Source of the DNA: Streptomyces sp. ISL-36
GTDB taxonomy: Bacteria > Actinomycetota > Actinomycetes > Streptomycetales > Streptomycetaceae
Length of the DNA: 64,000 nucleotides
Reading direction: 5' to 3'
Assembly (NCBI RefSeq): GCF_018614205.1
Contig: NZ_JAGGOS010000021.1
Location: 1 to 64,000 of the forward strand
Under the pieces are notes generated by a model. That model was not told the DNA's origin, did not search any database, and saw only the letters and a list, made by a program, of their open reading frames with translations. Each line of letters begins with the position of its first letter. Within the stretch, counting starts at the first letter, position 1. The position numbers and the translations under genes are program-made. Positions 31,054 to 63,726 of this stretch are shown in pieces.

Positions 31054-31073
31054 CCGCCGCTCGAGAGGCAGGC

Positions 31074-31170
31074 CGCACACGTGGGCCGCACACGTAGGCC
31101 GCACACGTGGGCCCGCACCACGTGGGCCGGCATGACGTGGCGCCGCACCACGTGGCCCCGCCCCACGCGT
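31074..31170. repeat. CACGTG-rich degenerate tandem repeats
   Basis: At least six imperfect copies around 'cacgtgggccgca' spaced 11-20 nt apart, each with a CACGTG or CACGTA/GACGTG core, between hbpS and the M1 peptidase. No gene is seen here. Confidence 0.6.
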
Positions 31171-31293
31171 GCCCGCCCCCCCGGCATGTCCGCCCCACGC
31201 AGCCCCCTCCTACGTCGGTGGCGCCCGGACCCCGCCGGGCGCCACCGATGCCGTATGAGCGCCACACGGGCGGGAGCTGCATAGGATCGGCAC

Positions 31294-56194: not shown

Positions 56195-56410
56195 GGATCG
56201 AACTCTTCTCGATCGGTGGACAGACCCCCGCCAGGTGTTCCCGCACCTCGTGGGGGTCGTTCGTTTTCCGGACACGCTAGAGGCATATGACGCTGGGTGG
56301 CAAGTCGATCGCGTTCGGTCAACTCTCCGGGAGGGTGGGCGGGTTGAGTCCCAGGCCCCTACCCCTTCCTCTGAAAGAGGGCTCGAAGCCCGAGGCTTGA
56401 GCTTCGGGTC

Positions 56411-56851
56411 TCACCAGGGAGAATCGGCGCCGCGTCGGGCCCGCAGCGCGAAAGCGGACCACAGGGCCGCCGCCACCGGGGCGGCCGCGGCCATCGCCGC
56501 CAGTGCGGGGGCCTCCGGTCGCCAGCCGAGGGAGAGGCGAGTGCCGAAGAAGGCGAGCCCGGCCGCGACCCGCCCGGGGGCGTGGACGGGGGCCCTCGCG
56601 GCGGCGGCCCGCAGTACGGCTGCCGTCGCCGCGCCCGTCGCGATCCATGCGCACAGGTACGGCCAGACCGCCCCGGGGGCGGCGGGCGGCAGACCGTACT
56701 CCTCGGGGCCGATACGGAAGAGGGCTCCGGCCCAGCCCAGCCCCACCCCGAGGGCGGCGATGCCAGCCACCCACAGGGCATGGCGCCACAACGGGCCGGG
56801 CGCCAGGGGCGCCTCGCCGTCGGGTTCGGTCGAGTCGAGGAATTCGCTCAC
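56411..56851 (-). CDS. small multi-pass membrane protein, unknown
   Basis: A 146-residue protein with about four hydrophobic segments (ALWVAGIAALGVGLGWAGAL, VWPYLCAWIATGAATAAVL, AGRVAAGLAFFG..., ALAAMAAAAPVAAALWSAFA). GTG 56851 (VSEFLDSTEPDG). No family recognised; it may be a small integral protein of unknown function. Confidence 0.6.
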   Translation of the reverse strand: MSEFLDSTEPDGEAPLAPGPLWRHALWVAGIAALGVGLGWAGALFRIGPEEYGLPPAAPGAVWPYLCAWIATGAATAAVLRAAAARAPVHAPGRVAAGLAFFGTRLSLGWRPEAPALAAMAAAAPVAAALWSAFALRARRGADSPW

Positions 56852-56938
56852 GCCTTGATGGACGTGGGCCGGCGAGCGCGCGTTGCCTGAGCGGGAGGAA
56901 TTCGGCAACCGATGCCTCGCCGGGTGGCGAAGGGCGCG

Positions 56939-56980
56939 TCGGGTAGGGGTAGGGGTAGGGGTAGGGGTAGGGACGGGGGC
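56939..56980 (+). repeat. (GGGGTA)n G-rich tract, possible G-quadruplex
   Basis: gggta then four consecutive ggggta units followed by gggacggggg and aggggc; at least six G-runs of 3-5 separated by 2-3 bases. This can form a stable G4 on the + strand. It lies between a divergent pair of small membrane proteins. Confidence 0.85.
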
Positions 56981-57109
56981 AGGGGCATTGCGCCGCGATC
57001 CAGGCCGAGAAGGACAAGGGCGCCGAGCGGGCGCGGCATTGAACGCGTTCAATATTCCTGGCAGGATGCACGTCGAGAGCGCTGACCGTGCGCCGAGGGG
57101 GGCTGGACT

Positions 57110-57508
57110 GTGGACGAGGGCGAGCCCTGGAGAAACCTGGGGAGGGTCGGGCTGCGGCTCGTCGATCTGGTCGTGCGCTACTGCCTGACCTTCGCGATCA
57201 CATGGGCCGCCATGGACGCCGCCCTGCCGGCGGAGGCCCGGAGCTCCGAGACCGCCCTCGACTTCTTCCCGTTCGTCGGGATCCCGTCCATCCTGATGAG
57301 CTTCGTCTACGGGCTGGCGAGCACCCGGACGGGCATGGCCTTCCGGCTTCCCCTGGCCGGGCTTCTCCTGCTGCCCACGTGGTTCCTGCTCTTCGGGCAC
57401 TTCCTGGAAGTGCTGATCATCCCCGTCCTCGGCCAGCTCTTCTTCGCGCTGTGCGTGATGCGGGCCCCGATGCTGGGCCCGTCCCGGCTCCGGCGTCGGA
57501 CGGTGTGA
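57110..57508 (+). CDS. small membrane protein, 132 residues
   Basis: About four hydrophobic segments (VVRYCLTFAITWAAM, FFPFVGIPSILMSFVYGLA, LPLAGLLLLPTWFLLFG, FLEVLIIPVLGQLFFAL). GTG 57110 with GAGGGGGG. No family is recognised. The G-rich tract lies about 130 nt upstream, in its promoter region. Confidence 0.7.
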   Translation: MDEGEPWRNLGRVGLRLVDLVVRYCLTFAITWAAMDAALPAEARSSETALDFFPFVGIPSILMSFVYGLASTRTGMAFRLPLAGLLLLPTWFLLFGHFLEVLIIPVLGQLFFALCVMRAPMLGPSRLRRRTV

Positions 57509-57646
57509 GCGCGGCCCGGGTCTCTAGCCCGGGGTCGGCGTGCGCAGGGGAGCGGCCGGCCCGACCGCGGTCATGGGGGCAGCCCCACCCCCCGCTCTCC
57601 CGTCTGCCGGATGGGAACCTGGGCCTGCGTCAACAAGGCTTCAGCC

Positions 57647-59134
57647 ATGACGAATCACCCGCGCACCGCCCTTGTCCTCGCCCTCTCCGCCGCCGCCGTC
57701 GCGGCCTCGTTCACCGTCGCCCGGGCCGACCACTCCGGCGGCGGCCTGGCCTGGGGGGAGTGCGCACCGGGCGCCCTGCCCCAGCAGCAGTGCGCCACCC
57801 TCTCCGTACCGCGGGACTACAGCGACCCCGACGGGCCGCGGCTCTCCCTCGCCGTGTCGCGGATCCGCAGCGAGCGGCCCGAGGCCCGGCGCGGGACGCT
57901 CATGGTGATCCCGGGCGGCCCCGGGAGTTCCGGTGTGCAGCGGCTGACGCAGAAGGGGGAGGCGCTGGCCGAGGAGATGGACGGGGCGTACGACCTCGTG
58001 GCCTTCGACCCGCGGGGGGTCGGTGGCAGCACGACCGCGAGCTGCGGGCTGGACGAGAACGACCGGCGGCTGGAGAACCTGCGTTCCTGGCCCGCCGCCG
58101 ACGGGTCGATCGACGAGAACGTCTCCCGCTCCCGCCGTACCGCCGAGGCGTGCCGGCGCGATGGCGGCGAGACGCTGCACAGCTTCACCACGGCGAACCA
58201 GGTACGGGACCTGGACCGGCTGCGGCAGGCGCTCGGCGAGGAGAAGATCTCCGCGTGGGGGGTCTCCTACGGGGCGTACGTCGGTGCCGTGTACGCGCAG
58301 AAGTACCCGCGGCACACCGACCGCTGGGTCCTGGACAGCAGCGGTGACCCGGACCCGCAGCGGGTCGCGCAGGGATGGATGCGGAACATGGCGCGGGGCG
58401 CGGAGGACCGTTTCCCCGACTTCGCGGCCTGGGCGGCGCACCCCGACCGGGCGAAGGAAGCGCTGCGGCTGGCCCGGCACGCCGAGGACGTACGACCGCT
58501 CTTCCTCGATCTCGCCGCCCGCCTGGACCGCGTACCGAAGGAGTCCACCACCCCGGGCACCCCGGTGAGCGGGAACATCCTCCGCCAGGCCCTGCAGAAC
58601 GCGCTCTACAGCGACTCCGCCTTCCCGGCCCTGGCCCGGATGATCGTGGCCGCGGGGAGCCAGGACCCGGCCGTGCGACCCGCCCTGCCGCCCGGTCTCG
58701 ACAAGCCGCTGTCCGACGAGTCCCTGGCGGTCACGGTCGCGGTCGTCTGCAACGACGTGAGGTGGTCCGGGTCCGTCCGCTCCTACGAGCGGGCGGTCGC
58801 CGCCGACCGCGCCCGCCACCCGCTGACGGCCGGGCTCCCGGCCAACATCACGCCCTGCTCCTTCTGGCGGGCGCCGGCCGAGAAGCCGGCCCGCATCACC
58901 GACGACGGGCCGTCCAACATCCTGATGACCCAGAGCCTGCGCGACCCCGCGACCCCGTACGCCGGCGGCCTGAAGATGCGCGCCGCCCTCGGCGACCGGG
59001 CCCGGCTGGTCACCGTGGAGCAGGGCGGGCACGGCAACTACCTGGGCAACGGCAACGCGTGCGCGGACCGGACGGTGACAGAGTTCCTGCGGACGGGGGT
59101 CAGGCCCGCGCGGGACGTGTCCTGCGCGAACTGA
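57647..59134 (+). CDS. secreted alpha/beta hydrolase (tripeptidyl aminopeptidase type)
   Basis: A 495-residue exported hydrolase. Signal peptide LVLALSAAAVAASFTVARA; oxyanion/nucleophile features GGPGSSG and GVSYGAYVG (Ser207); C-terminal His in VTVEQGGHGNYLG; TAP-like C-terminal domain with two Cys. These enzymes remove tripeptides from secreted proteins. ATG 57647. Confidence 0.87.
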   Translation: MTNHPRTALVLALSAAAVAASFTVARADHSGGGLAWGECAPGALPQQQCATLSVPRDYSDPDGPRLSLAVSRIRSERPEARRGTLMVIPGGPGSSGVQRLTQKGEALAEEMDGAYDLVAFDPRGVGGSTTASCGLDENDRRLENLRSWPAADGSIDENVSRSRRTAEACRRDGGETLHSFTTANQVRDLDRLRQALGEEKISAWGVSYGAYVGAVYAQKYPRHTDRWVLDSSGDPDPQRVAQGWMRNMARGAEDRFPDFAAWAAHPDRAKEALRLARHAEDVRPLFLDLAARLDRVPKESTTPGTPVSGNILRQALQNALYSDSAFPALARMIVAAGSQDPAVRPALPPGLDKPLSDESLAVTVAVVCNDVRWSGSVRSYERAVAADRARHPLTAGLPANITPCSFWRAPAEKPARITDDGPSNILMTQSLRDPATPYAGGLKMRAALGDRARLVTVEQGGHGNYLGNGNACADRTVTEFLRTGVRPARDVSCAN

Positions 59135-59158
59135 CGCATACGGGCGAGCCGCTCGCCC

Positions 59159-59224
59159 GGCACGCGGCCACCGTGCGGGCGGCACGCGGCCACCGTTCGG
59201 GCGGCACGCGGCCACCGTTCGGGC
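59159..59224. repeat. three perfect 22-nt tandem repeats
   Basis: Unit ggcacgcggccaccgt(g/t)cgggc at 59159-59180, 59181-59202 and 59203-59224, just after the hydrolase stop and directly before a terminator. Confidence 0.92.
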
Positions 59225-59250
59225 GGCACCCCACGGACGGGGTGCCGCCC
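59221..59250. terminator. terminator hydrolase / murP-like gene
   Basis: A 12-bp stem (gggcggcacccc / ggggtgccgccc) with a 6-nt loop, beginning within the last 22-nt repeat. Confidence 0.88.
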
Positions 59251-59256
59251 GCGCGG

Positions 59257-60783
59257 TCAGACCTTCGCCGGTTCCGAAGGCGGGGCCGGCGTCCCCGAGG
59301 CCACCGGGATCGCGTCCCCCTCGGCCCCCGTCCCCGACCCCGACCCCGACCCCGTTCCCGTTCCCGTTTCCGTCCCCGTCTCCACGTTGAACTCCTCCAG
59401 GAGCGCGCGGCTGAAGCCCCAGAAGTACGTGGCCACGAACCCCACCGCGTAACCGGCCAGCAACCCGCCCGCGTAGATCGCGATCGTCTCGCCCAGGCCC
59501 TGGTTGCCGTCGAGCAGCGGGAAGAGGGCCCAGCCGGAGGGGCCGATGGCCGTCGAGCCGACCTTGTCGCCCAGCATGTTGAAGAGGCCGACGAACCCGC
59601 CGCCGAACGCGCCGCCGACGCAGGCGGTGACGAACGGGCGGCCCAGCGGGAGGGAGACGCCGTAGATCAGCGGCTCACCGACCCCGAGGAAGCCGGCCGG
59701 GAGGGCGGACCTGATGGTGCGGCGGATGGAGCCGTTGCGCGGCAGTCTGACGTAGACCGCCATCGCCGCGCCGACCTGGCCCGCACCCGCCATCGCCAGA
59801 ATCGGGAGGAGGACCGTGTGGCCCTGCTGCTCGATCAGCGTGGTGTGGATCGGGATCAGCGCCTGATGCAGACCCAGCATGACCAGGGGCAGGAACAGGC
59901 CGCCGAGGACGAAGCCCGCGCCGGCGCCCGCGTTCGCGAGCAGCCAGTTGGCGAAGTCTCCGATCGCGGTGGAGACCTCACCGGCCACGAACATCAGCCC
60001 GAAGATCGTGACCAGGCCGGAGACCAGGACCGTGAGGGTGGGGGTGACGAGGACGTCGAGGGCCTCCGGCACCCAGCGGCGGCACCACTTCTCGACGTAC
60101 ACCGCGAGCACCGCCGCGCCCAGCGCGCCCAGGACTCCGCCCTGGCCGGGGGAGAGCGTCTGACCGAAGGCGTCGATCTTGGCGACGCCGGGGAAGACGA
60201 TGATCGCGGCGACCGCACCACCGAGGACCGGCGTCCCGCCGAACTCCTTCGCCGTGTTGTAGCCGACGAAGACCGCGATCAGCGCCATGAAGCCGCTCGC
60301 CATGGCCGCGAGGGCGGGGGTGACGGCCGGCAGCCAGCCCAGATTGATCAGCAGGCCGTTGAGGCCGGCGATGATGCCGCAGCCGATGAGGGCGGGGATC
60401 AGCGGGACGAAGATGTTCGCGATCCGGCGCAGGAACAGCTTGAAGGGGGTCTGGTTCCTCGCCTTCCGGGCCGCCTTGATCGCCGCCCCCTGTGCGGCGA
60501 GGCCGTCCGCGGAGGGCTTCGGCGCCTCGGCCACCAGGGTCTCGAACTCCGGAGTCACCCGCGCGACCGTGCCCGGGCCGAGGACGATCTGGTACGTGTC
60601 GTCCTCCACCACGCCCAGCACGGACGGCAGGGCCCGCAGGGCCGCGTCCTGGACGAGTGAGCGGTCCCGCAGACCCAGCCGGAGCCGGGTCATGCAGTGG
60701 GCCACGGAGCTGATGTTCTCCGCGCCGCCGACGAGCGGCAGGATCGCGGCGGCGATGGCGCGGTTCTTGTCGTCTGTGCTCAT
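59257..60783 (-). CDS. PTS EIIBC permease, MurNAc (sucrose-type) family
   Basis: A 508-residue protein: EIIB with phospho-Cys30 (SVAHCMTRLRLGL), then EIIC with about ten membrane helices (IPALIGCGIIAGL, GVGEPLIYGVSLPL). There is no EIIA domain, so it must use a separate EIIA (Crr). Next to murQ and an RpiR regulator it is most likely a MurNAc (MurP-type) transporter. The C-terminus ends in an expanded Gly/Thr/Ser linker. ATG 60783. Confidence 0.83.
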   Translation of the reverse strand: MSTDDKNRAIAAAILPLVGGAENISSVAHCMTRLRLGLRDRSLVQDAALRALPSVLGVVEDDTYQIVLGPGTVARVTPEFETLVAEAPKPSADGLAAQGAAIKAARKARNQTPFKLFLRRIANIFVPLIPALIGCGIIAGLNGLLINLGWLPAVTPALAAMASGFMALIAVFVGYNTAKEFGGTPVLGGAVAAIIVFPGVAKIDAFGQTLSPGQGGVLGALGAAVLAVYVEKWCRRWVPEALDVLVTPTLTVLVSGLVTIFGLMFVAGEVSTAIGDFANWLLANAGAGAGFVLGGLFLPLVMLGLHQALIPIHTTLIEQQGHTVLLPILAMAGAGQVGAAMAVYVRLPRNGSIRRTIRSALPAGFLGVGEPLIYGVSLPLGRPFVTACVGGAFGGGFVGLFNMLGDKVGSTAIGPSGWALFPLLDGNQGLGETIAIYAGGLLAGYAVGFVATYFWGFSRALLEEFNVETGTETGTGTGSGSGSGTGAEGDAIPVASGTPAPPSEPAKV

Positions 60784-63353: not shown

Positions 63354-63634
63354 CCCTCTACATCGACCCGCCGACGTGGGCGGGCCATGGCCGCATGTGG
63401 TCGCACCTGGTCAGCGATGTCTCGTACGCGGAGCTCCACGCCTTCGCGGCGTCGATCGGCGCCCCGCCGCGCGCTTTCGAGCGCGACCACTACGACATCC
63501 CCTCGGAGCGGTACGCCGACGCGGTGGCGGCCGGCGCGGTGGAGGTCGGTTCCAAGGAGCTCGTCCGCCGGATCACCGAGGCGGGCCTGCGCCGACCGAA
63601 GGGCCGGCCGGAGGACTGGCCGTCGGCGCCCTGA
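63350..63634 (+). CDS. DUF4031 protein
   Basis: A 94-residue protein: TLYIDPPTWAGHGRMWSHLVSDV, HYDIPSERYADAVAAGAVEV. Fits DUF4031. GTG start overlaps the previous stop by 4 nt, so both are in one operon. Function unknown. Confidence 0.85.
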   Translation: MTLYIDPPTWAGHGRMWSHLVSDVSYAELHAFAASIGAPPRAFERDHYDIPSERYADAVAAGAVEVGSKELVRRITEAGLRRPKGRPEDWPSAP

Positions 63635-63726
63635 CCGCCCCGGCCCCTGACCGCCCCGGCCCCTGACCGCCCCGGCCCCTGACCGACCCGGGCCCTGACC
63701 GACCCGGGCCCTGACCGACCCGGGCT
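63631..63726. repeat. six tandem 16-nt repeats
   Basis: Units of ctgaccgccccggccc (three copies) then ctgaccgacccgggcc (three copies, the last ending in t), starting on the DUF4031 stop codon. No gene is read from it. Confidence 0.95.

Follow-up and report, generated by a model that had tools for sequence, protein, structure and literature searches.

A GGGGTA hexanucleotide repeat with G-quadruplex potential, probably passive in regulation, between two divergent small genes of Streptomyces

Introduction

Eukaryotic telomeric repeats share a G-rich hexamer unit with the tract described here, which is itself neither terminal nor multi-copy. Among bacterial systems, potential G-quadruplex motifs have been reported to be enriched between genes, above all those with short loops, in the available part of PMC12563890, and the available part of PMC5801747 describes the use of such motifs for promoter prediction in Streptomyces coelicolor. 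For the same species, many of the sigma-E targets listed in the accessible portion of PMC6767563 have promoters of the form AAC-N17-CGTC, and that portion also suggests that further ECF factors recognise such promoters. In the present study, we analysed a G-rich tract lying between two divergent small genes in a Streptomyces genome, together with the promoters of both neighbours.

Materials and Methods

The window is the whole stretch of DNA that was analysed, 64 kb in length. The genome it belongs to is a draft assembly (7.98 Mb, 216 contigs), in which the chromosome ends may be missing. The within-genome sample comprised 400 kb, taken as 20 stretches of 20 kb from six other contigs, and the comparison genomes were chosen one per species. 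For the gene on the minus side of the tract, upstream regions were compared in 34 cases, namely the gene itself and 33 of its 43 relatives; the 10 relatives outside this comparison are two near-full-length matches (in G212 and G333) and eight weak matches.

Results

On the plus strand, positions 56941-56985 hold a partial GGGTA and four perfect GGGGTA units, followed by GGGACGGGGGCAGGGG. The exact hexamer array, GGGTA(GGGGTA)4GGG (56941-56972, plus strand), has a period of 6 and 5.3 copies. It runs into a degenerate G-rich continuation, ACGGGGGCAGGGG (56973-56985, plus strand), which is part of the same potential G-quadruplex, and the whole G-rich tract reads GGGTA(GGGGTA)4GGGACGGGGGCAGGGG (56941-56985). 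When at most one mismatch is allowed, GGGGTAGGGGTA has 4 matches in the 64-kb window, all of them inside the tract, with a shuffle mean of 0.19; since 4 matches were attained in none of 100 shuffles, the tract stands above the chance level. On one strand it carries at least four runs of at least 3 G, joined by loops of 1-7 nt, which is the motif of a potential G-quadruplex, and it gives the highest G4Hunter window in the 64 kb (2.68) for both window lengths tried.

A strong quadruplex potential, as proposed in the initial annotation, is therefore supported by motif and by score. The same annotation had described five or more GGGG(TA) units at 56939-56980. The repeat is there, and its count has to be lowered to four perfect units with a partial GGGTA before them and GGGA after them; its start was placed two bases early, and an end at 56980 truncates the G-rich stretch.

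The G4Hunter score of the tract is top class in the genome, a higher peak occurring in 1 of the 20 sampled 20-kb stretches with either window length. Of exact period-6 arrays no shorter than 20 nt, the window contains 2 and the 400-kb sample 5, one of the latter being longer than the tract. Quadruplex motifs with runs of at least 3 G were counted 24 times in the window and 122 times in the sample, a rate of 19.5 per 64 kb for the latter. With runs of at least 4 G, the window holds 4 against 5 across all of the sample (0.8 per 64 kb), and hence it is richer than the sample in strong motifs. The pattern GGGGNNGGGGNNGGGGNNGGGG (GGGG-NN-GGGG-NN-GGGG-NN-GGGG) has 10 matches at 9 places in the genome, with several different units, and is matched in 149 of 150 genus genomes; irregular units, plain G runs and matches that overlap one another all enter these counts.

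The particular unit of the tract is much rarer. Its exact 22-mer has a single copy in the genome under study, the only one of 150 genus genomes to contain it, and the reversed 22-mer is present in 9 of them; the 16-mer GGGGTAGGGGTAGGGG was found in 9 of 150 genomes (own included) and its reversed control in 25. As the backwards controls outnumber both forward words, the GGGGTA unit is not favoured in the genus. In the 8 other genomes with the 16-mer the flanks look unrelated by eye, and when 56400-57600 was used as a DNA query against 61 genomes, 9 others matched at the tract, only over G-rich stretches of 32-47 bases and without the flanks. The scattered G-rich arrays seem to originate independently, lineage by lineage. 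Judged by how often such arrays occur in the genome and across the genus, and by these unrelated flanks, the tract is a strong yet ordinary member of this class. It was not found among the matches listed in literature searches on Streptomyces quadruplexes, bacterial quadruplex promoters and simple repeats.

The tract sits between a minus-strand gene starting with GTG at 56851 and a plus-strand gene starting with GTG at 57110. The divergent promoter zone of two small membrane protein genes, in the words of the earlier description, is thus correct as to divergent small genes, the membrane nature of the products being a matter of hydrophobicity judged by eye. The distance from the tract to the -35 element is 53 bases on the minus-gene side and 53 on the plus-gene side; this position exactly midway may or may not be due to chance. 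The tract overlaps neither predicted promoter and is external to both predicted transcripts, so that an RNA quadruplex is unlikely; the transcript of the minus gene is predicted to begin a few bases at most from 56851 and that of the plus gene near 57073. Searches of this region gave no match to RNA families (56300-57700, E up to 1), no plasmid relatives of 56850-57110 and no promoter in a strict sigma-70 scan of 56700-57600; the one terminator-like site in 56700-57600 is within chance (mean 0.5). At 38 loci with a relative of the neighbouring TAP-like hydrolase, 35 of them in Streptomyces, neither small gene is present by tblastn, and these loci therefore yield no syntenic spacer for comparison.

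Other repeats were seen in the same window. A second G-rich hexamer array, of GGGGTC/GGGGAC type, lies at 59316-59380 on the minus strand, within the 3'-terminal part of what by eye is a PTS EIIC-like gene, where it encodes a Gly-Thr/Gly-Ser tail. A 22-bp unit is present in 3.3 tandem copies (59158-59229) in the gap where the TAP-like hydrolase gene and the PTS-like gene converge. Short tandem arrays are frequent in the window, given the further arrays at 63624-63723 (16-bp unit, 6.2 copies) and 31073-31176 (15-bp unit, 7.3 copies).

The minus gene (56411-56851, minus strand) encodes a small protein of 146 aa, hydrophobic by eye, for which Pfam and NCBIfam searches gave no match; the gene is matched in 44 of 392 genomes, own included. 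Upstream of it we found an ECF/sigma-E-like promoter with the -35 element GGCAAC at 56882-56887 and the -10 element CGTC at 56861-56864, both on the minus strand, the latter 9 nt before the start codon. The promoter has the AAC-N17-CGTC form of sigma-E-type promoters. AAC-N16-18-CGT[CT] is conserved at the expected place in 33 of the 34 upstream regions (own included), and the 34th carries the motif further up; CGTT replaces CGTC in two relatives. The spacing is N17 in 32 regions, with an in-frame start codon 9 nt behind the -10 element in 31 of them and 8 nt behind it in one. The N17 motif appears in 0.33% of shuffled 65-nt segments, a rate that ignores kinship, as the relatives are mutually non-independent. 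From this pattern we infer that an ECF/sigma-E-like factor uses the promoter. With the start codon 9 nt behind the -10 element, the transcript would be almost without a leader, and the minus gene is therefore probably leaderless or nearly so. The minus gene and its 33 relatives appear to make up an apparently leaderless, ECF-controlled family of small proteins.

None of the 33 relatives examined has a G-rich hexamer array in the 200 nt that precede its minus-gene homologue. A quadruplex motif with runs of 3 G lies at -200 to -30 in 2 of the 34 regions, namely our own and one C-rich stretch of different sequence. In two further relatives a quadruplex motif lies directly at the start codon, beyond the interval of this count. 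The neighbours upstream of the minus gene vary among the relatives, and for this reason the absence of the tract there does not amount to a strain-level test. The absence weighs against a conserved role of the tract, and a lineage-restricted role is possible.

The plus gene (57110-57508, plus strand, start GTG, with a clear GC3 phase) encodes a small protein of 132 aa, also hydrophobic by eye and without a match in Pfam or NCBIfam. It was matched in 2 other of 150 genomes (G003 and G087). A palindrome, TTGAACGCGTTCAA, covers its presumed -35 element; this perfect palindrome, ATTGAACGCGTTCAAT (57038-57053, either strand), a presumed TetR-type operator, overlaps TTGAAC at 57039-57044, and a presumed -10 element, CAGGAT (57062-57067, plus strand), was placed by inspection 17 nt behind TTGAAC. 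The pattern TTGAACNNGTTCAA has 8 sites in the genome, with 0 for the backwards control, and occurs in 78 of 101 genus genomes (control 3 of 101). Besides 57038-57053 in the window, its sites in the own genome lie at C167:4573-4630, C12:3995-4050, C176:70307, C112:69475 and C148:75019, and among the places listed they are often paired, 40-46 bp apart. In G087, a site stands just upstream of the plus-gene homologue, and the stretch checked there contains no quadruplex motif; at the loci of the two plus-gene matches in G003 no palindrome site was found. The palindrome is thus common to one of the two other plus-gene genomes and the tract, as far as seen, to neither.

Elsewhere in the genome, two sites 44 bp apart are followed, on one strand, by genes for a small membrane-type protein, a DCC1-like protein and a TetR-family regulator (C167:2742-3653, minus strand), whose TetR_N and TetR_C_23 domains were identified by a Pfam scan of this own-genome copy only. 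The inverted repeat thus lies over promoter elements, assigned by inspection, and recurs at the TetR gene's own operon. Because this pair precedes an operon with a TetR_N/TetR_C_23 gene, this TetR protein likely binds the palindrome. Relatives of the regulator were detected by BLAST in 7 of 20 genomic stretches searched. A YndJ-like gene likewise has two sites in front of it, 42 bp apart. In several relatives, genes read by eye as succinate dehydrogenase subunits are close to palindrome sites. Taken together, the sites suggest a small candidate regulon made up of genes for membrane and lipoprotein-like products; in the titles and abstract openings of the literature matches listed, no work on the TTGAAC/GTTCAA palindrome in Streptomyces was found.

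Discussion

We consider it likely that the tract is a lineage-specific, slippage-born hexanucleotide microsatellite with quadruplex potential that is passive in regulation. The GGGGTA repeat would have been produced by slippage during replication of a G-rich stretch separating divergent genes of the Streptomyces chromosome, a process whose hallmark is a varying number of repeat units. Its plus strand could fold as a G-quadruplex when single-stranded, and the tract would probably be a passive spacer, without regulatory effect. The minus gene would be regulated by its conserved ECF/sigma-E-like promoter, giving a nearly leaderless mRNA, and the plus gene by a TetR-family repressor acting on the palindrome over the -35 element. 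Several observations count against the passive reading, namely the higher density of runs of at least 4 G in the window, the top-class G4Hunter score, the quadruplex motifs at the start codon of two relatives, and the intergenic enrichment of such motifs in bacteria stated in the available part of PMC12563890. Against the palindrome account of the plus gene counts the lack of a site at the G003 homologues.

The initial annotation had suggested that a G4 at this place could affect the transcription of both genes. In a mechanism of this kind, negative supercoiling from the divergent promoters would melt the tract, the G strand would fold, and initiation at one or both promoters would change. The four GGGG runs with TA loops, the top G4Hunter score of the window and the location between divergent promoters agree with it, and the published intergenic enrichment (PMC12563890, as far as its available part goes) makes a regulatory quadruplex possible in general. 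We nevertheless regard it as unlikely here. The tract shares no base with either promoter, lies outside the predicted transcripts and is separated from each -35 element by 53 bases, and neither the genus genomes nor the upstream regions examined hold a counterpart of it. A conserved position relative to the promoter was seen at none of the 33 minus-gene relatives, within 200 nt upstream, nor, in the stretch checked, at the G087 homologue; what is conserved instead is the sigma-E-like promoter at the minus gene, and what recurs at the one plus-gene homologue is the palindrome and not the tract. Furthermore, quadruplex motifs of this sort are abundant, with about 120,000 instances in S. coelicolor under the definition of PMC5801747, whose available part gives an F1 of 0.56 and 0.51 for random motifs compared with 0.61. 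A more specific form, which we hold to be improbable, would place a supercoil-driven quadruplex insulator midway between the two genes, uncoupling the ECF-sigma- and TetR-controlled promoters in one lineage and tuned by slippage.

Phase variation, in which promoter output shifts as units are gained or lost, could draw on the exact 5.3-unit hexamer array as a slippage-prone sort of sequence. The tract is external to both -35/-10 pairs, so that unit changes alter neither spacer, and whole units preserve any reading frame; we judge such a switch very unlikely. We give still less credit to the tract being a coding sequence on the minus strand with a Pro-Thr, Pro-Tyr or Leu-Pro repeat. Open frames of the minus strand do cross it and within the tract the GC-phase signal is elevated, but the periodic signal fades beyond it and GC-rich DNA often has open frames by chance. 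The start codon 9 nt behind the -10 element in 31 of the 32 N17 regions moreover sets the minus-gene start at 56851. A coding origin was accordingly rejected, the GC-phase signal coming mainly from the repeat and the start being fixed by the conserved promoter spacing. A set of iteron-like direct repeats serving as a protein-binding site is the least credible reading of all, for tandem copies do stand between the promoters but their 6-bp period mismatches the helix turn and neither unit nor place recurs in the genomes examined.

The likeness to eukaryotic telomeric repeats that had been pointed out for this tract proved superficial. Long terminal arrays in many copies are typical of the eukaryotic type, and here we find a single short internal array of 5.3 copies, whose 22-mer has no second copy in this draft genome with its possibly missing chromosome ends. 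A telomere kinship is not supported.

These results call for some caution in the reading of such tracts. Striking G-rich arrays are common in GC-rich genomes, and a position in a promoter zone alone is therefore weak evidence for function. Better regulatory candidates exist at the same place, in the form of the conserved, probably leaderless ECF promoter and the TetR-type operator, and the putative operator may define a small regulon across the genus.

In comparison with known systems, the tract resembles the G-rich microsatellites and potential quadruplexes of GC-rich bacteria in its 4-G runs, short loops, intergenic place and scattered, low-copy occurrence, and shows no essential difference from them, its GGGGTA unit being rare in the genus. 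The palindrome of the plus gene is like TetR-family operators in being a perfect inverted repeat over a presumed -35 element and in standing, as a pair, before an operon with a TetR_N/TetR_C_23 gene; it is here a putative operator. Finally, the minus-gene promoter shares the AAC, the 17-nt spacing and the CGTC of the Streptomyces coelicolor sigma-E promoters given in the available part of PMC6767563, and differs from them in that its -10 element lies only 9 nt before the start codon.
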